Shown here: in pieces, positions 38,190 to 52,638 of the stretch
How the letters are laid out: every line of letters begins with the position of its first letter
How positions within the stretch are numbered: position 1 is the stretch's first letter
Assembly (NCBI RefSeq): GCF_900100485.1
Contig: NZ_FNDH01000007.1
Location: 1-64,000, forward strand
Direction of reading: 5' to 3'
From: Nitrosomonas sp. Nm132
Lineage (GTDB): Bacteria > Pseudomonadota > Gammaproteobacteria > Burkholderiales > Nitrosomonadaceae
DNA length: 64,000 nucleotides
The notes under the pieces: generated by a model
The model's database searches: none
What the model saw: the letters and a program-made list of their open reading frames with translations, nothing else
Told to the model about the DNA's origin: nothing
Position numbers and translations under genes: made by a program

Positions 38190-39842
38190 ATGACAACTGT
38201 AGTAGAACAAACCCTGCCTCTCGCCGAGCGTAATGCATGGAAAGCTTTGGCAGCGCATTACGAACATGTTCGCCACTTCCATCTCCGGGCGCTCTTTGCC
38301 GATGATCCCCGGCGCGGCGAGCATATGACGGCCGAGGCGGCGGGTCTCTACCTTGATTACTCGAAAAACCTCATTACCGACGAAACGCTCAAGCTGTTAA
38401 TGCAGCTCGCCGAAGAATGCGGACTTCGCCAGCGGATCGACGCCATGTTCTGCGGTGAGAAAATCAATATCACGGAGAACCGCGCTGTGCTGCACGTGGC
38501 GCTGCGCGCACCGAAAGGGGCTTCCATCATCGTGGACGGCGAAAATGTCGTTCCCCAGGTGCATGCCGTCCTCGACAAGATGGCTGATTTTTCCGACCGT
38601 GCTCGGAACGGCACGTGGCAGGGGTATACCGGCAAACGCATTCGCAACGTCGTCAACATCGGCATCGGCGGCTCCGATCTCGGTCCGGTGATGGCCTTTG
38701 AGGCACTGAAACATTACAGCGAGCGGACCATGACATTCCGCTTCGTATCGAATGTCGACGGCAGCGACTTCGCGGAAGTAGTCCACGATCTGGATCCGGC
38801 AGAGACCCTTTTTATCGTTTCTTCCAAGACTTTTACCACGCTCGAGACGATGACGAACGCCTACACGGCCCGCGATTGGTCGCTCGCTGCTTTCGGGGGA
38901 GACCGCAAGGCGATCGCCAGGCACTTCGTAGCGGTATCGACGAATGCGGCGGAAGTGGCGAAGTTCGGTATCGATCCTGCTCAGATGTTCGGATTTTGGG
39001 ACTGGGTGGGCGGGCGTTACTCCATGGCCTCGGCCATCGGTCTTTCGACCATGCTGGCGATCGGGCCAGTCCATTTCCGTGCCATGCTCAATGGTTTTCA
39101 CCAGATGGACGAACACTTCCGGACGGCTTCATTCGAGAACAATCTGCCGGTGCTGATGGGCTTGCTCACGTTGTGGTACACCGACTTCTTCGGCACTCAG
39201 GCCGTGGCCGTGTTGCCCTATGAGCAGTACCTGAAACGATTCCCTGCCTATTTGCAGCAACTGACGATGGAGAGCAACGGCAAACAAGTTACGCTTGATG
39301 GATCCAGGGTCAGCTATAACACCAGCCCAATCTATTGGGGCGAACCGGGGACCAACGGCCAGCATTCCTTTTACCAGTTGATTCATCAAGGCACCCGGTT
39401 GATTCCTTGCGACTTTATCGCCTTCATCGAGACACTTAACCCGCTCGGGCGGCACCACGATATTCTGATGTCGAACGTCTTTGCCCAATCTGAAGCCCTG
39501 GCCTTTGGCAAAACCAGCGAACAAGTCAAGGCCGAGGGTACGCCAGATTGGCTGGTACCGCATCGCGTCTTTGAGGGTAACCGCCCGTCCAACACCCTCC
39601 TCGCCGAGCAGCTTACGCCCGAGACGCTCGGTAAGCTGGTCGCCCTCTATGAACACTCGGTCTTTACTCAGGGCGCGATTTGGGGAATCAATCCTTTCGA
39701 CCAGTGGGGCGTGGAACTGGGCAAGGTGCTGGCTCAGCGTATCATCCCGGAGCTGGAAAGCCAGGCAGAGCCCGTACTCGAACATGACAGTTCCACCAAT
39801 CAGCTGATCCGTCGCTATCGACGCTTCAAGGGGATTTCCTGA
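38190..39842 (+). CDS. pgi: Glucose-6-phosphate isomerase
   Basis: Interconverts glucose-6-phosphate and fructose-6-phosphate (550 aa). [45 protein letters not shown] and [20 protein letters not shown] are conserved active-site segments; the catalytic Glu, His and Lys are in these and in the C-terminal ELGKVLAQ region. AGAGGAG precedes the ATG. With pgm it connects central metabolism to UDP-sugar supply. Confidence 0.97.
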
Positions 39843-39889
39843 TGAACCCGGCTGCCGTGGACTTGAGTACCGGGAGAAAGGAGTAGGCT

Positions 39890-40072
39890 ATGCGACGCCT
39901 CCCTGCAACGGCACGGCATCTCCTGCCGCCTACCGGAGATCGAAAGCGGCCCGCTTGCGGAGAAAAGATTCAAGAAATAGCCTGCCGGCTGCTTCCCTAT
40001 CGATATCGCCGAAGTGTAGATGGAAGCAGGCAAACGCTATCTGTTCGTGACCATCGAACGCATATGTTTTAA
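39890..40072 (+). pseudogene. IS481-like transposase (integrase-core) relic
   Basis: Read through two stops and a frameshift, the region gives RLPEIESGPLAEKRFKK, then FPIDIAEV and MEAGKRYLFVTIERI; this matches the integrase core of IS481-type transposases (G-F-HIDIAEV...EGKLYLFVAIDRT). Only about 60 codons remain, between pgi and the cyclooxygenase-like gene. Confidence 0.6.
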
Positions 40073-40132
40073 GGACTAAGAAGAATGTAAGCCATCAATG
40101 ATTTGCCACATAAATAAAAAAGGGGTGAGACT

Positions 40133-41737
40133 ATGGACGAGTTTCTTTTTCAGATTGCTTTTCGGCTGGTAAATAGGTTTCCATGGATTGGCAGGATGGC
40201 CTCGCGCATAACCTGGCTGCGGCGGTTTATCAGTGACAATTTTATCAATTGGCAGGCCTATGCCACGAACCCTCGTCCTAGACCGTTTTCCATGGCTGCA
40301 CCCTATACCACATGGCAATCATTGACGGATAGAACATTCACTGGGCGGCATTTGCCAGAAGCGGAAGGAGAACAGAATCTTCCGAGTATGGGGAGAGTCG
40401 CTAATCTATGGAGAAGAAAAGAAAATAAAGAAATCCCGTCGGTCGATACCAGCATATTGTTTTCTTTCTTCGCCCAATGGTTTACTGACAGTTTTCTGAG
40501 GACGGATTTTCTCGATCGCCGGAAAAATACCTCAAATCACGAAATCGATCTTTGCCAGATCTATGGTTTGCGTGAAGAAATTACCCATTATTTGCGGCTA
40601 AAAAAAGATGGAAAGCTGAAGCATCAAATGATCGATGGAGAAATTTTTCCTCCTTACCTTTTTAACGTTGAAGAAACGACCACGGGTAATTGGGTGTTCG
40701 CTAATAAAGAATTTGAGAAATTGCACCCTCGCTATGCTTTGGATTTTGTTTTTCACAATGTTCCTGAGGAGCGGTTAAAACGCATGTTTGCCGTTGGATT
40801 GGAGCACGGCAATTCGTCGATTGGCTATACCCTAATGAATACCATCATGCTGCGAGAACACAATCGGATTTGTGACTTGCTAAAAGAAACCTATCCAGAG
40901 TGGGATGATGAGCGCTTATTTCAGACAGCTAGAAACATCATGATTGTCCTGCTGATTAAAGTCGTCTTGCGGGATTACGTTTCGCACTTTACACGGTTTG
41001 ATTTTACCCTTGATCCCACACCGGGTATGGCGGAAAGGCAGCGCTGGTACCGCACCAACTGGATCTCCTTGGAATTTAATCTCCTCTATCGATGGCACTC
41101 AATGGTGCCGGAATACTACATGGTCGGTAATAAGCGATTCAAGCTAGATGAATTTCGTAACAATACGCCTTTAGTAACGCAATATGGTGTTGGGCCATTG
41201 ATAACGGCTGCTTCGATGCAAAGAGCCGGCCGTGTCGGGCTATACAACACCCCGGGTTTCTTTTTTGATCCGCTACCCATTGGTGATGATAATCGAAGTG
41301 TCATGGAGCGCACCATTGAGATGGGACGGCAGGCCAAGTTGCGTTCATTCAATGATTATCGCGAGGCATTCGGCATGCCTCGCTTGAGGAGTTTTGAGGA
41401 ACTCACGGACGATCCCGAACTACAGCGGGAACTGAAGGAACTCTATCATGACCGGATCGAGGATCTGGAATGGCAAGTCGGTATATTTGCCGAAGATCAT
41501 GATGAAGGTTTTAGTCTTGGTCGCCTTATGGTACGTATGGTGGGGTACGATGCATTTACCCATGCGCTGACCAACCCCCTTGTATCGACCTATGTACATA
41601 ACGAAAGGACATTTTCGAAAGTTGGACAATTCGTTATCGAAGAAACAAACTCGCTTGCGGATATTGTTAAACGTAATGTAAAGGACAGCGACATCGTGGC
41701 AAGCTTCAGAACATCTACGCTGTCATCAGACAGCTAA
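40133..41737 (+). CDS. Cyclooxygenase-like haem peroxidase family protein
   Basis: Homologous over most of its 534 aa to prostaglandin H synthase: DGKLKHQMIDGEIFPP, IMLREHNRICDLLKETYPEW, DERLFQTARNIMIVLLIKVV, EFNLLYRWHSMVPEYY and FNDYREAFGMPRLRSFEELT. By eye alignment Tyr319 matches the radical tyrosine Tyr385 of COX-1 and His322 the proximal haem ligand His388. Unusually, FAQWFTDSF stands where COX has FAQHFTHQF: the distal Gln is kept (Gln115) but the distal His207 becomes Asp119. The Ser530 position appears to be Ala. It lacks the EGF-like domain and signal peptide. ATG with AAGGGG upstream. The stop codon TAA is the first three bases of a short MITE end. The lipoxygenase gene follows after 113 bp. 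A fatty-acid dioxygenase role is likely; the product is unknown. Confidence 0.9.
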   Translation: MDEFLFQIAFRLVNRFPWIGRMASRITWLRRFISDNFINWQAYATNPRPRPFSMAAPYTTWQSLTDRTFTGRHLPEAEGEQNLPSMGRVANLWRRKENKEIPSVDTSILFSFFAQWFTDSFLRTDFLDRRKNTSNHEIDLCQIYGLREEITHYLRLKKDGKLKHQMIDGEIFPPYLFNVEETTTGNWVFANKEFEKLHPRYALDFVFHNVPEERLKRMFAVGLEHGNSSIGYTLMNTIMLREHNRICDLLKETYPEWDDERLFQTARNIMIVLLIKVVLRDYVSHFTRFDFTLDPTPGMAERQRWYRTNWISLEFNLLYRWHSMVPEYYMVGNKRFKLDEFRNNTPLVTQYGVGPLITAASMQRAGRVGLYNTPGFFFDPLPIGDDNRSVMERTIEMGRQAKLRSFNDYREAFGMPRLRSFEELTDDPELQRELKELYHDRIEDLEWQVGIFAEDHDEGFSLGRLMVRMVGYDAFTHALTNPLVSTYVHNERTFSKVGQFVIEETNSLADIVKRNVKDSDIVASFRTSTLSSDS

Positions 41738-41764
41738 CCCGAATATTTCATAAATTCGCGTTAA
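41735..41764 (-). mobile_element. 30-bp solo end of the MITE, supplying a stop codon
   Basis: TAACCCGAATATTTCATAAA through CGCGTTAA; same breakpoint as 12679-12708. Its first three bases are the stop codon of the cyclooxygenase-like gene. Confidence 0.7.
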
Positions 41765-41850
41765 GAGGTTGTTTAGCTTAAATGTGGAAGTGATAGCGAA
41801 ATAATCCTAGAAACCGGACGAATTCCTCTTTTGTAAAGGAGCATCGCACG

Positions 41851-43515
41851 ATGAATAAGCTACCACAAAATGAAGAAAATATACGCAAGATAGAAAATCG
41901 GAAAAATTATCTTCTTGATATGCAGGCTAAATATCAATACGCATATGAGTATGCCAATACTATCGCTGTCGTACGTAAGTTACCGTGCCGGGAGATACCC
42001 GGCATTGGGTATTGGCTGCGTGGAGGGTTAAATCTGTTACAGTTGATTCCAAGCTTGTCTAGCCTATTGGCTACTTATTTGCGCTATTTGCTCGGCAAGC
42101 CAATGGAAAGTTATCAAGACTATGTTTTTTATCCGTTTAGTCCGCCAAACCCAGATCTGGTCGATAGCTTCCAGCAAGATCTGATATTTGGTTTGCAACG
42201 TGTTATTGGGGTAAATCCAGTCGTATTGCGCGCCGTAACCCATCAGCATCCTCTACCAGAAAAATTGTCAGAATTTCAAATGCGACGCATTTTTGAGGAT
42301 CAAATTGATGAGATTGATTATGCGGCGGCCATTGGACAAAAACGCGTGTATGTTCTGGACTATGCGGCCCTGGATATATTGCAGCTAAACCCCGGGCATA
42401 TCGATGGTGGCCGCAAGCAATATGTCACAACGCCGATTGTAGTGCTATTTCTGCAATCAGATGGCATGTTGCGACCGATCGCAATACAGCTATATCAAGA
42501 TCCCGGGCCCGACAATCCAATCTATACTTCAAAAGACGGCAATCTTTGGTTGGCGGCAAAAATATTCGCTCAAATCGCTGACGGCAACCACCACATACTT
42601 TATACCCATGCGACCCGTATTCATTATGTCATGGAAGCCATCATTATGGCCTCACGTAGGCAGCTTTATAAATCTCATCCACTCTATGTTTTATTAAATC
42701 CACATCTTCAATATACACTCAATGTTAATCACCAGCACACTTTCCTGAAAGATCGAAAAGGGCGTCCTGGCCGGTTTGGGGAGTTATTTGCTGGAGATTA
42801 TGACGCGACGATTCAGTGCATGGCCAATGGCATGACGAGCTTTAACTTTAGAGCATCCGCTTTTCCTAATGATATTGCGAACCGGGAAGTCGATAATCCT
42901 GATCTTTTTTATCCTTATCGCGATGATGGAATTTTGTTATGGAACGCAATTCAAAGCTTTGTCAAAGAATATGTCGATTTATATTACAAATCTGAAGCAG
43001 ATATTGCCGAGGACTATGAAATTCAGGCATGGGCAAATGATATCAGAGCACAAGATCGCGGTAGAATCCCTGGGTTTCCTGCCAAATTCGAGTCTAAGCA
43101 AGAACTCACCGAGACGCTTGGTCATATCATTTTTCTATGTACTGCTTTTCATTCGTGCATTCATTTCAACCAATACAAATATCCGGGGTTTGTTCCCAAT
43201 ATGCCGTATTCGGCTTATGCGCCCCCTCCGATGGGAAAAAACACTGGAATCGATGCGGCTGAACTATTGAAGTTCCAACCAGCATTCCGGGCTGCTTATT
43301 CGCAAACGTGGACCTATTTCCTGACAAATTTCCGTGTCAACCGGATTGGGCAGTACCCACTGCAGCAATTCGATCCTGAAGCACGCGATGCGATAACGCG
43401 GTTCAGAAACCAGTTAGAGGAAATAGAGGAACAAATTGATCGAAGAAATAACAACCGTTCTGTCACTTATGATCGCATGAATCCAAGGTTAATCCCAAAC
43501 GGTGTAACTGTTTAA
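41851..43515 (+). CDS. Lipoxygenase family protein
   Basis: Non-haem iron dioxygenase of polyunsaturated fatty acids, without the N-terminal PLAT domain (554 aa). Predicted iron ligands: His253 and His258 in THATRIHYVMEAI (H-x4-H), His434 and His438 in FHSCIHFNQYKYPGFVPNMP (His instead of the more common Asn at the fourth position, as in some animal enzymes), and the C-terminal carboxylate. RRQLYKSHPLYVLLNPHLQY is also characteristic. The last residue is Val rather than the usual Ile. Shine-Dalgarno AAAGGAG is 11 nt before the ATG. It follows the cyclooxygenase-like gene on the same strand; a shared transcript is likely, though a short MITE lies between. A desaturase at 51706 could make suitable substrate, but this link is speculative. 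Confidence 0.92.
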   Translation: MNKLPQNEENIRKIENRKNYLLDMQAKYQYAYEYANTIAVVRKLPCREIPGIGYWLRGGLNLLQLIPSLSSLLATYLRYLLGKPMESYQDYVFYPFSPPNPDLVDSFQQDLIFGLQRVIGVNPVVLRAVTHQHPLPEKLSEFQMRRIFEDQIDEIDYAAAIGQKRVYVLDYAALDILQLNPGHIDGGRKQYVTTPIVVLFLQSDGMLRPIAIQLYQDPGPDNPIYTSKDGNLWLAAKIFAQIADGNHHILYTHATRIHYVMEAIIMASRRQLYKSHPLYVLLNPHLQYTLNVNHQHTFLKDRKGRPGRFGELFAGDYDATIQCMANGMTSFNFRASAFPNDIANREVDNPDLFYPYRDDGILLWNAIQSFVKEYVDLYYKSEADIAEDYEIQAWANDIRAQDRGRIPGFPAKFESKQELTETLGHIIFLCTAFHSCIHFNQYKYPGFVPNMPYSAYAPPPMGKNTGIDAAELLKFQPAFRAAYSQTWTYFLTNFRVNRIGQYPLQQFDPEARDAITRFRNQLEEIEEQIDRRNNNRSVTYDRMNPRLIPNGVTV

Positions 43516-43525
43516 TGAAGTGGAT

Positions 43526-43753
43526 TCAAGATTGCATTGCAGAACTTATGATGGCTTGACCGTCACTGAGCGATACGCCGAAGCGTGCCTCAATGTGAGC
43601 TAGTACATTCCTATAACAGTCATTGACTACATTCTTATCTGGATTATAAAAGTCCGATCCAATTTGAAGCTGAAATGGCAGCAACTTAAAAAAGTTATTT
43701 AACTGGATGATTACAAAATACTTGACCAGGTCAATTTCTTGATCATTTGTCAA
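43526..43753 (-). CDS. Small hypothetical protein (doubtful)
   Basis: A 75-codon frame, convergent with the lipoxygenase gene. The sequence looks protein-like (KNVVNDCYRNVLAHIEARFG) but matches nothing I know. Its start lies inside promoter module B, reading the opposite way, and no good ribosome site is seen, so it may be a relic of a longer gene. Confidence 0.3.
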   Translation of the reverse strand: MTNDQEIDLVKYFVIIQLNNFFKLLPFQLQIGSDFYNPDKNVVNDCYRNVLAHIEARFGVSLSDGQAIISSAMQS

Positions 43754-43838
43754 TAAAGCTTGTCCCTACGTGTTTATACGTATTCTTTTAATCAGCCTAT
43801 TCTAATAATCTATTGAAGTATCAGGGGTTAATAACAAA
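43736..43838 (+). promoter_or_regulatory. TACGTG-N4-CACGTA promoter module B
   Basis: Extended copy: TTGATCATTTGTCAATAAAG, then CCCTACGTGTTTATACGTAT, then TATTCTAATAATCTATTGAA, and GGTTAATAACAAAGACT downstream. The coiled-coil gene starts 70 bp after the putative -10 region. Confidence 0.65.
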
Positions 43839-43888
43839 GACTGCTTATTTTCCTATAAACGATCCTCAACCTTATAACGAGGTAGCGT

Positions 43889-44911
43889 ATGTTGCGTTTT
43901 CTGAGTTCGCTGTTCACAACGCCAGCGGAGCGGACGGAAGGTCTGGATGCGGCCTTGATCGAGACAGCCATCGAGCGAGCAGTGGACGGCACAGATCGGC
44001 GTATCCGTGCCATTGGGCAGTATCGAAAACGGCTTCATCAGCCTGCGGAACGCGCCGTCACTCACGTGATCTCCCTTGTCGACGCCTTGCCTGCGCCGAT
44101 AGAAATAAGTCCGCGGGCATTTGGCGCGAATCCATTTTTACGTACATTCTTTGTTTCGACCGACCACTTGCGCGAAGTTTTCGGGGGCTTCAAAACCCTA
44201 CGCGATTACCTGACGAACTTGACCGGGCCGGTTCCCGAGCAGATTTTCGGTCTGCTGAGTATGGACATGGAGGAGCGCAAGGTGTTCGGAGTAGAACTCG
44301 TTGGTGACACTCTGCGCCGCGATGTCATGCAAGTCACTGTGAATTTTTTCAATTATCGTTACCTTGGGCCCACCAGCAATGAGCGGGATACTCGCCGCGA
44401 ACTGAAGAAACGCGCCTTTGATTTTTTGATCGAAAAGGCGCTGGAGCGCATTGCAGGCGAGCAGGGCAAACGCAGGGAGCTGGATCGCCAACGGCATCTC
44501 CTGAAACAAAAGCTCGCAGCCATGAAGACAGGAAGTTGGGGGCTTGATGCAATGCTGATCGATCTCGAACGGCAGCGCCCTGACCTTGCCGCTCTGGAAG
44601 CGGAGATCGAAGCCATTGATGGGGAACTTGGACAATTTCATACCGATAATCTTGATCTGGAAGAGAGTCTTGCCTGTGTTGTTGATACCTTGAGCCATCC
44701 TGCAGCCTGGCTTGCCTCTCGTGAGATTCGCCTGCGCCTTGATTCCATGGGAATCAAGATTGAAGATTCATCAGCAGCATCAAAAGAAATTGTGTTGACC
44801 GAGATTTCTTCAGGTACGGGGGAGCGAAGAATCATACTGTTGGGGCATATTGCACGAGCTGACATACCGGAGCCGCGGGATCTCTGGCGGGAGGCGCAAC
44901 GTTACCTGTAA
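43889..44911 (+). CDS. Conserved coiled-coil protein of unknown function
   Basis: 340 aa, soluble, no signal peptide or membrane segment. Residues about 165-290 are strongly charged and predicted coiled coil (KKRAFDFLIEKALERIAGEQ, RRELDRQRHLLKQKLAAMKT). The C-terminus ends with a short beta-rich piece (GERRIILLGHIARADIPEP). No catalytic motif recognised. It is the first gene after promoter module B, and the following small gene at 45020 probably belongs with it (108 bp apart). Higher GC than the neighbouring lipoxygenase. Confidence 0.75.
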   Translation: MLRFLSSLFTTPAERTEGLDAALIETAIERAVDGTDRRIRAIGQYRKRLHQPAERAVTHVISLVDALPAPIEISPRAFGANPFLRTFFVSTDHLREVFGGFKTLRDYLTNLTGPVPEQIFGLLSMDMEERKVFGVELVGDTLRRDVMQVTVNFFNYRYLGPTSNERDTRRELKKRAFDFLIEKALERIAGEQGKRRELDRQRHLLKQKLAAMKTGSWGLDAMLIDLERQRPDLAALEAEIEAIDGELGQFHTDNLDLEESLACVVDTLSHPAAWLASREIRLRLDSMGIKIEDSSAASKEIVLTEISSGTGERRIILLGHIARADIPEPRDLWREAQRYL

Positions 44912-51705: not shown

Positions 51706-52638
51706 TCAAAATGAGTTTACAACTACACGAGCAGCGTTGAGCTTTTTATTTTGTTCTAGACTTTCCGGTCCTCTTATCATGGCATTCAAAAAGACAGAAA
51801 AATAACTTTTATCAATAATTGCGTTTTGACGTTCGATTTCAGGCAACATCAAAGCATGTAATTTCTGGAGGTTATACCAAGGTACAGCAGGATATACATG
51901 ATGCCCAATATGGTAATTAATATTATTCCAAAACCAAGAATTTATCGGATTACTGATAATGGTTCGAGTGCCGGCAAGTTGTCCAGAGCTCCAGGGTGTT
52001 CCGTAATGCTCTGCTACAAAGCGAATGCTATTAAAAAATCCAAAAAATATGAGTGGCCAAAACCAAATTGCAAAAACTTCAGATGCGATGCTTTGATTAG
52101 ATGCCCAGTAAAAAACGGCGACCATTAAAGTTATATGCAGTGCAATTTCAGTCCAATGAATCAGAGCCTTGACACCTCTAAATTTTTGTACTGGAAAAAT
52201 AAACGTAAACTGAATCGCAGTAAGAAATACTCCCACCAAGGCGTACGCATAGAAAAGGATATAATCACCAATCTCACGTTTGCCCATTGTAAATGCATCT
52301 GGGTCTTTTTGAGTGCGGTTATGGCGATGATGAATGAGATGATCTTCTTTGAATGAAGTGAATGAAATAAACATGGGTATGATGGCGAAAGTACCAAATG
52401 CCCAATTCTTCCACTTTGCTTTGAATAGAACATTATGAGTGCATTCATGCATAAAAGTCATGATACCCATTTGCATGTACCCCATTGCAAGATAACACAG
52501 CCACGTAATAATCCAGTGGGGAGAATTCCAACAAACTACTCCCAATCCGATCCAGATTAAGTAAAATAAAGGTATCTTTAGGTTGGGTTGCCAGCGTTGT
52601 TGATAAAGTTTTCTCAGTTCAACATTATTAATTTTCAA
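51706..52638 (-). CDS. Membrane fatty acid desaturase
   Basis: Di-iron acyl desaturase of the inner membrane, 310 aa with four likely helices. The three His boxes are HECTHN (near residue 85), HLIHHRHN (near 120) and HIGHH (in NYHIGHHVYPAVPW, near 245), giving the eight-His ligand pattern. The start is TTG at 52638 with TAAGG upstream; no better ATG in frame. Isolated between relics. It might provide unsaturated acyl chains for the dioxygenases at 40-43 kb, but nothing in the sequence proves this. Confidence 0.92.
   Translation of the reverse strand: MKINNVELRKLYQQRWQPNLKIPLFYLIWIGLGVVCWNSPHWIITWLCYLAMGYMQMGIMTFMHECTHNVLFKAKWKNWAFGTFAIIPMFISFTSFKEDHLIHHRHNRTQKDPDAFTMGKREIGDYILFYAYALVGVFLTAIQFTFIFPVQKFRGVKALIHWTEIALHITLMVAVFYWASNQSIASEVFAIWFWPLIFFGFFNSIRFVAEHYGTPWSSGQLAGTRTIISNPINSWFWNNINYHIGHHVYPAVPWYNLQKLHALMLPEIERQNAIIDKSYFSVFLNAMIRGPESLEQNKKLNAARVVVNSF

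Follow-up and report, generated by a model that had tools for sequence, protein, structure and literature searches.

The 64,000-nucleotide stretch analysed here (the window; bases 1–64000 of contig C128, in a 3.2-Mb genome of 135 contigs, genus Nitrosomonas) carries two adjacent genes on one strand, for a haem dioxygenase with the cyclooxygenase (COX) fold and for a lipoxygenase. These two enzyme families of animal eicosanoid synthesis form a conserved neighbour pair in nitrifiers, among them a strain whose record names it N. europaea ATCC 25978. A preliminary description of the DNA had singled them out as COX-like and lipoxygenase genes 113 bp apart, quoting two COX motifs and a lipoxygenase ligand pattern. 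Coordinates and gap agree with this; both motifs are present (LREHNRICDLLKE, and EFNLLYRWH as residues 314–322), as are the ligand residues H253, H258, H434, H438 and the C-terminal V554.

Neither protein matched an NCBIfam model at 0.001. Both genes are under purifying selection, the ratio of nonsynonymous to synonymous substitution rates (dN/dS) being 0.06–0.12 in seven of eight comparisons (four partners per gene): 0.06–0.10 for the dioxygenase with three of its partners (that with L067 gave no usable dS) and 0.07–0.12 for the lipoxygenase with all four, one at a dS above 2. A promoter and terminator scan of 39800–43950 placed no promoter-like or terminator-like site inside the intergenic gap. 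Over the whole interval it returned nine promoter-like and four terminator-like sites against 9.0 and 3.2 in shuffled sequence, and therefore, apart from the site-free gap, neither supports nor opposes co-transcription.

A haem dioxygenase with 10S-type residues

The first protein matches a single Pfam family, that of the animal haem peroxidases, with no cytochrome P450 (P450) domain in the same scan. Its top solved relative is prostaglandin G/H synthase 2 (COX-2; 4.6e-65), and the AlphaFold model (predicted local distance difference test score, pLDDT, 90.8) adopts the COX fold, with a Foldseek template-modelling (TM) score of 0.85 to COX-2. Three N-terminal helices of the model (3–15, 17–25 and 27–42) resemble the COX membrane-binding domain; the enzyme is probably membrane-associated. 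The block of Tyr, Arg, Trp and His that includes the catalytic and proximal haem positions is kept in 80/80 aligned proteins.

Three other active-site positions depart from COX. At the distal haem position, Asp is found in 79 of the 80 aligned proteins (the window's included), the remaining row having a gap. Substrate-channel residues of COX type are absent from the window dioxygenase, which has Ala474 for Ser530 and Gln41 for Arg120. On these three replacements a cyclooxygenase proper was rejected. The protein carries the signature of a 10S-dioxygenase: D119, Y282 (Tyr348 in COX), Y319 (Tyr385), V470 (the Gly526 site, Ile in 10S-dioxygenases), D473 and A474. Judged by its residues, which are of the bacterial linoleate 10S-dioxygenase type, 'cyclooxygenase' is too specific a label: the fold, catalytic Tyr and proximal His are those of COX, and the cyclooxygenase identity in the preliminary assignment falls with FTDSF in place of FTHQF and Ala in place of Ser530.

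In a quick tree the nitrifier dioxygenases form one clade (Shimodaira–Hasegawa-like approximate likelihood ratio test, SH-aLRT, 99). The nearest rows, L073 and L070, are both dioxygenase–P450 fusions by Pfam; their branches are long and L073 is partial, which makes the placement less sure. Bacterial fusions of this kind (L070:10001-12853, L104:10001-12889 and L073:1-2544) resemble fungal linoleate diol synthases.

A rare lipoxygenase

The second protein matches PF00305 alone, and its top solved relative is 5med, an arachidonate 15-lipoxygenase entry (5.8e-77). All four His ligands are kept in 16/16 nitrifier lipoxygenases. His296 lies opposite 5-lipoxygenase Ala410, at the Coffa site. On the sequences compared, a His here is uncommon, not unique: five more distant bacterial lipoxygenases have Asp, Ala, Ala, Ala and His. 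Identity is 22–33% to most other bacterial lipoxygenases met and 41% to the nearest found outside nitrifiers. Such genes are rare, with PF00305 in 6/369 genomes of a class-wide draw and a match to the window lipoxygenase in 6/398 genomes of a phylum-wide draw, the window's own genome included in both.

Table 1 Coordinates, in window numbering, of the gene pair, its key codons and the surrounding features
Feature	Position	Strand	Basis
Haem dioxygenase gene, COX fold, predicted fatty-acid substrate, 10S-dioxygenase type, 534 aa	40133..41737	+	PF03098, 1.7e-43; AlphaFold model and Foldseek; residues as in bacterial 10S-dioxygenases
Codons F117-T-D-S-F121; Asp119 at the COX distal haem His207 position	40481..40495	+	COX-2 alignment; FtdsF/FthqF in an excerpt of PMC13049297
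Codons E314-FNLLY319-RW-H322; catalytic Tyr (COX Tyr385) and proximal haem His (COX His388)	41072..41098	+	Alignment; roles from an excerpt of PMC13049297
Intergenic gap, 113 bp	41738..41850	+	GGAG ahead of the lipoxygenase start, read by eye
Lipoxygenase gene, 554 aa	41851..43515	+	PF00305, 1.6e-61; residues 15–553 align to lipoxygenase 5med
Metal ligands H253 and H258 (HATRIH)	42607..42624	+	5-lipoxygenase alignment; His in 16/16 nitrifier lipoxygenases, window included
His296, opposite 5-lipoxygenase Ala410	42736..42738	+	His in 16/16 nitrifier lipoxygenases
Metal ligands H434 and H438 (HSCIH)	43150..43164	+	5-lipoxygenase alignment; nitrifier lipoxygenase alignment
C-terminal Val554, carboxylate ligand position	43510..43512	+	Val in 10 and Ile in 6 of 16 nitrifier lipoxygenases
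Segment of ~3.9 kb absent from the pgi–g43889 junction of G069 (empty site)	39847..43766	.	Similarity to G069 ends at 39846 and restarts at 43767
Remnant resembling an IS481-family transposase gene	39899..40060	+	69–72% identity to plasmid sequences, 8 rows listed of 43 records
Fatty-acid desaturase family gene	51706-52638	-	Open reading frame list and Pfam

Conservation of the pair across genomes

A close dioxygenase (at least 76% identity) occurs in 17 of 125 family genomes, and the identical 17 hold an intact lipoxygenase. In every one the lipoxygenase lies downstream, in one order and on one strand, with 63–205 nt between matched ends; a lack of conserved adjacency, one of the results that the preliminary description had named as refuting its proposal, did not occur. 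Random coincidence of two such sets has p = 2.5e-21, a figure that kinship makes no true test. Within the genus alone, an intact lipoxygenase of the window type is present in 9/85 genomes. One more, G058, has a 26-residue C-terminal remnant (G058:C1:2666315-2666392), perhaps left by gene loss. In seven other family genomes the dioxygenase search met more distant paralogs or haem peroxidases of other kinds and nothing closer; none of the seven has a lipoxygenase match.

Searching more widely with an alignment of the dioxygenase gave 547 confirmed matches; the best 80 fall into 79 loci, of which 14 are close and 65 distant. Among these best 79, the lipoxygenase is directly downstream at 14/14 loci of at least 77% identity (Nitrosomonas, Nitrosospira and Nitrosovibrio), and a full lipoxygenase was found at 0/65 distant loci, where flanks sometimes stop at contig ends, so that absence is not conclusive. 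A weak lipoxygenase fragment (31% over query residues 196–295) at one of them, L131, is below the limit of a later scan. In the Nitrosospira and Nitrosovibrio set (g3), nine genomes have a less similar dioxygenase (40–43%), eight of them alongside the pair and G157 by itself; this copy has no lipoxygenase partner, the eight having just the lipoxygenase of the pair and G157 none.

The 17 pair genomes represent five genomic settings (neighbour clustering of 16 loci, plus G159): Nitrosospira and Nitrosovibrio (eight genomes); N. europaea, N. communis, N. mobilis and G068; N. marina (two); G039 and G024; and the window. No third gene family is constant beside the pair across the five, and 14 window neighbour genes, searched against 17 stretches of which one is the window's own, found no match in the other 16. 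Trees of the two proteins (16 loci; the L072 row of the dioxygenase tree runs a few residues beyond its own stop codon) are free of conflict among strongly supported branches. The comparisons support the pair as a conserved two-gene unit of dioxygenase and lipoxygenase, consistent with the making of oxylipins.

Accessory genes that accompany the pair

An ortholog of at least 88% identity of one further family, F5, is present in 18/125 family genomes: all 17 with the pair, and G018. In 14 of the 17, no more than 17 kb separates F5 from the pair; in the window genome (G000), G039 and G024 it is on a different contig. Three more genes, the DyP-related F6 together with F7 and F3, adjoin F5 in 17/17 pair genomes (F3 of Nitrosomonas is 42–45% like the Nitrosospira query). 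The two-gene oxygenase unit originally proposed therefore survives as a conserved pair and proves too narrow as a whole, the unit being larger, with catalase-related (F5), DyP-related and two further genes placed on another contig here.

Gene order varies between settings. Nitrosospira and Nitrosovibrio have F5, F6, F7 and F3 after the pair on the opposite strand. In four Nitrosomonas genomes (G011, G038, G068 and G072) the pair is followed by F15, F12, F11, F3, F7, F6 and F5, with other open reading frames intervening in G068 and G072. The window genome groups F15, F12, F11, F5, F6, F7 and F3 on contig C84 (525-13033); in G039 and G024 the same seven are likewise on a contig other than that of the pair.

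Searched alone, F5 matches no Pfam family at 0.001 and nothing meaningful in the PDB. We therefore give its relationships from a family alignment of nitrifier F5 and 14 distant homologs. At a limit of E = 1, 14 of the 15 members match PF00199, the strongest at 3.2e-13; the exception is nitrifier F5 itself. In the PDB the family profile scores best against 3e4w (5.7e-9), an entry titled only 'putative uncharacterized protein', ahead of catalases, which begin at 3.8e-7, and of a coral allene oxide synthase (1u5u, 8.5e-6). By this profile evidence F5 is catalase-related; a lyase role is predicted for this partner, whose close ortholog accompanies the pair in 17/17 genomes. Homologs of F5 (24–37%) also stand at 25 of the 65 distant dioxygenase loci, directly downstream in 23 (within ~0.6 kb), directly upstream in one (L116) and ~5.6 kb off in one (L106). 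The 23 include the locus of Nostoc punctiforme NIES-2108 (L121), where the neighbouring protein matches PF00199 at 4.6e-8.

The other families are a mixed group. F6 matches Pfam Dyp_perox_C just over the cut-off and NCBIfam DyP at 2.4e-20. A predicted structure of F7 (seven sequences, at least 85% alike) was discarded at a mean pLDDT of 34.8. F11 is a c-type cytochrome with a weak match, under the cut-off, to a di-haem cytochrome c peroxidase model, and F12 is a GMC oxidoreductase. F15 is an alpha-dioxygenase-like haem protein (best PDB match alpha-dioxygenase, 1.9e-54), present at 70% identity or more in seven Nitrosomonas with the pair, in pieces in G018 and in a distant version in N. marina, with no match in g3. 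F15 of the window genome (C84, 525-3572; L175) has a lipoprotein-like LLLLSGC stretch, read by eye and shared with the N. communis ortholog, so its site of action may be extracytoplasmic. Another gene close to the pair, in G011, G068 and N. marina, is F16, a patatin-like phospholipase gene by the one member scanned.

The desaturase at 51706 had been put forward as a possible contributor of substrate. Orthologs of at least 70% identity occur in 15/85 Nitrosomonas genomes, its own included; with 3/9 among those that have the pair and 12/76 among those that lack it, there is no clear association, and we rejected this gene as the supplier.

Insertion of the pair in the window genome

The relative G069 is without the pair, and there pgi and g43889 adjoin. 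Its empty site, with similarity resuming on the far side, places the pair in a ~3.9-kb segment inserted after pgi. The G+C content of the two genes is 0.46 and 0.44 against 0.57 for pgi. Inside the segment, ahead of the dioxygenase, lies the transposase-like remnant; one of the eight listed plasmid rows that match it is annotated as an IS481 family transposase. The pair appears to have been re-located, perhaps with the help of an insertion sequence. Since the contig of 109,581 bases extends ~40 kb beyond the pair on one side and ~66 kb on the other, the separation of the pair from the accessory genes is no effect of a nearby contig end.

A plasmid origin of the pair was rejected: nine plasmid records match the lipoxygenase and 29 the dioxygenase, none at 60% identity or more. 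One plasmid, NZ_CP071721.1 of Acaryochloris sp. 'Moss Beach', holds both a lipoxygenase (30%) and a dioxygenase (40%), ~82 kb apart.

A candidate oxylipin pathway and its alternatives

We consider it likely, from the sequence comparisons above, that the paired genes are the fatty-acid-oxygenating part of a small oxylipin system in ammonia-oxidising bacteria. The best reading of the module is a 10S-dioxygenase/lyase oxylipin type extended by a lipoxygenase, and the conserved pair together with peroxide-handling genes suggests a bacterial pathway for oxidised fatty acids. In such a pathway the haem of the dioxygenase would be oxidised by peroxide and Tyr319 would become a radical, which would abstract an allylic hydrogen from a fatty acid with one or two double bonds; O2 would then add to give a fatty-acid hydroperoxide. 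The non-haem metal lipoxygenase would then make a second hydroperoxide or work on the dioxygenase product, and the F5 and F6 proteins would cleave or rearrange the hydroperoxides. The activities, the substrates, the sequence of steps, the end product and the role in the cell are all inferred. By analogy, work in nitrifiers may be divided between an oxygenase and a hydroperoxide-processing enzyme.

A more elaborate version, a dedicated pathway, is possible, though we propose it tentatively. Dioxygenase and lipoxygenase would work on the same lipid in turn, the catalase-related enzyme and the DyP-related peroxidase would come after them, and the outcome would be a doubly oxygenated signal or defence compound; in some Nitrosomonas the alpha-dioxygenase-like protein would be a third oxygenase.

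Several observations weigh against an oxylipin system. The accessory genes are unlinked from the pair in the window genome, and contig C58 of G018 (L189) keeps F5, F6, F7, F3, F11 and F12 without it. A further 29 family genomes have distant F5 homologs only (28–40%) and none has the pair, so that only the close F5 ortholog tracks it. Counts of F6, F7 and F3 cover the 17 pair genomes and G018, and the NCBIfam DyP score of F6 is under the cut-off (73 of 100.5 bits). The lipoxygenase has His296 where 5-lipoxygenase and 5med have Ala. Classical lipoxygenases need a polyunsaturated fatty acid; Nitrosomonas is not known to make any, and the substrate of the lipoxygenase is therefore the main puzzle. 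Joint inheritance, too, can hold linked genes together without a common pathway.

The lipoxygenase might come second in line: instead of starting from a free polyunsaturated fatty acid, it would isomerise the hydroperoxide made by the dioxygenase or oxygenate it again, and the two would give one doubly oxidised compound. The nearest non-nitrifier relatives of the dioxygenase (L070 and L073) are fused to P450, and a catalase-related gene is the direct dioxygenase neighbour at 24 of the 65 distant loci, so hydroperoxide-processing enzymes are frequent in the partner position; the invariant nitrifier His at the Coffa position points the same way. We nevertheless find this order unlikely: the metal ligands are those of an ordinary lipoxygenase, the same His in one of five other bacterial lipoxygenases gives no sign of a special reaction, and a catalase-related gene is already there for a second step.

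Removal of lipid or other peroxides and radicals under nitrosative or oxidative stress, with no signal made, is improbable. Ammonia oxidisers do encounter NO and hydroxylamine, and the company of catalase-related, DyP-related and c-type cytochrome genes would suit such a role, but lipoxygenases and COX-fold dioxygenases produce hydroperoxides and do not remove them, and the distal His, important for the peroxidase activity of COX, is replaced by Asp in all aligned dioxygenases save the one with a gap. That the two genes, with independent functions, are neighbours merely through joint acquisition and travel fits the insertion beside an IS481-like remnant and the trees without conflict, but is equally hard to credit when adjacency is kept in five settings and the catalase-related gene is kept even where unlinked.

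An oxylipin system remains our preferred reading. If the pathway makes oxylipins, nitrifiers would gain lipid signalling, of which we know no established case among them, and the role of bacterial COX-fold enzymes and lipoxygenases would become testable in a cultured strain.

Comparison with known systems

With vertebrate COX the window dioxygenase shares the fold, 29–32% identity, the catalytic Tyr and the proximal His; it differs in lacking the distal His and the aspirin Ser and in having Gln for Arg120. The alignment begins only at residue 60–64 of the COX-2 chain, and the window protein therefore has no counterpart of the EGF-like part. Gupta and Selinsky reportedly worked on bacterial relatives of COX in 2015. 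In an excerpt of PMC4420034, bacterial cyclooxygenases are known as putative sequences only. Fungal and bacterial dioxygenase–P450 fusions of the linoleate diol synthase type likewise join the same haem dioxygenase domain to a partner that processes hydroperoxides, whereas the window protein is without P450 and has a lipoxygenase for a neighbour.

Bacterial lipoxygenases such as 5med and Pseudomonas LoxA share PF00305 and the metal ligands; the nitrifier enzyme differs from them in its fixed partnership with a haem dioxygenase. Two parts of the picture are already known, namely a haem dioxygenase with a catalase-related partner from cyanobacteria and an N. europaea lipoxygenase in print (lipoxygenases characterised in this species, excerpt of PMC11941309). 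No publication on a fixed dioxygenase–lipoxygenase pair was found, by title or abstract, in searches of open-licence literature, which misses most subscription journals.

The cyanobacterial system is that of Nostoc punctiforme, a 10S-dioxygenase with a catalase-related hydroperoxide lyase (Brash et al. 2014, via an excerpt of PMC13049297). According to the same excerpt, the Nostoc linoleate 10S-dioxygenase has FtdsF at 143–147 against FthqF at 205–209 in COX, with Tyr342, Ile306, Thr310, Ile483, Asp486 and Ala487, and its product is transformed by a catalase-related lyase encoded by a separate gene. All of these residues stand at the same numbers in the NIES-2108 protein (L121), which is therefore the Nostoc 10S-dioxygenase in another strain. 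The window system has in common with it FTDSF, Ala at the Ser530 position, the haem-site Tyr and His and a homologous catalase-related gene. It differs in that the window dioxygenase is 38–40% identical to the NIES-2108 protein, that the catalase-related gene is on a separate contig in the window genome, and that nitrifiers add a lipoxygenase behind the dioxygenase, together with DyP-related, F7 and F3 genes.

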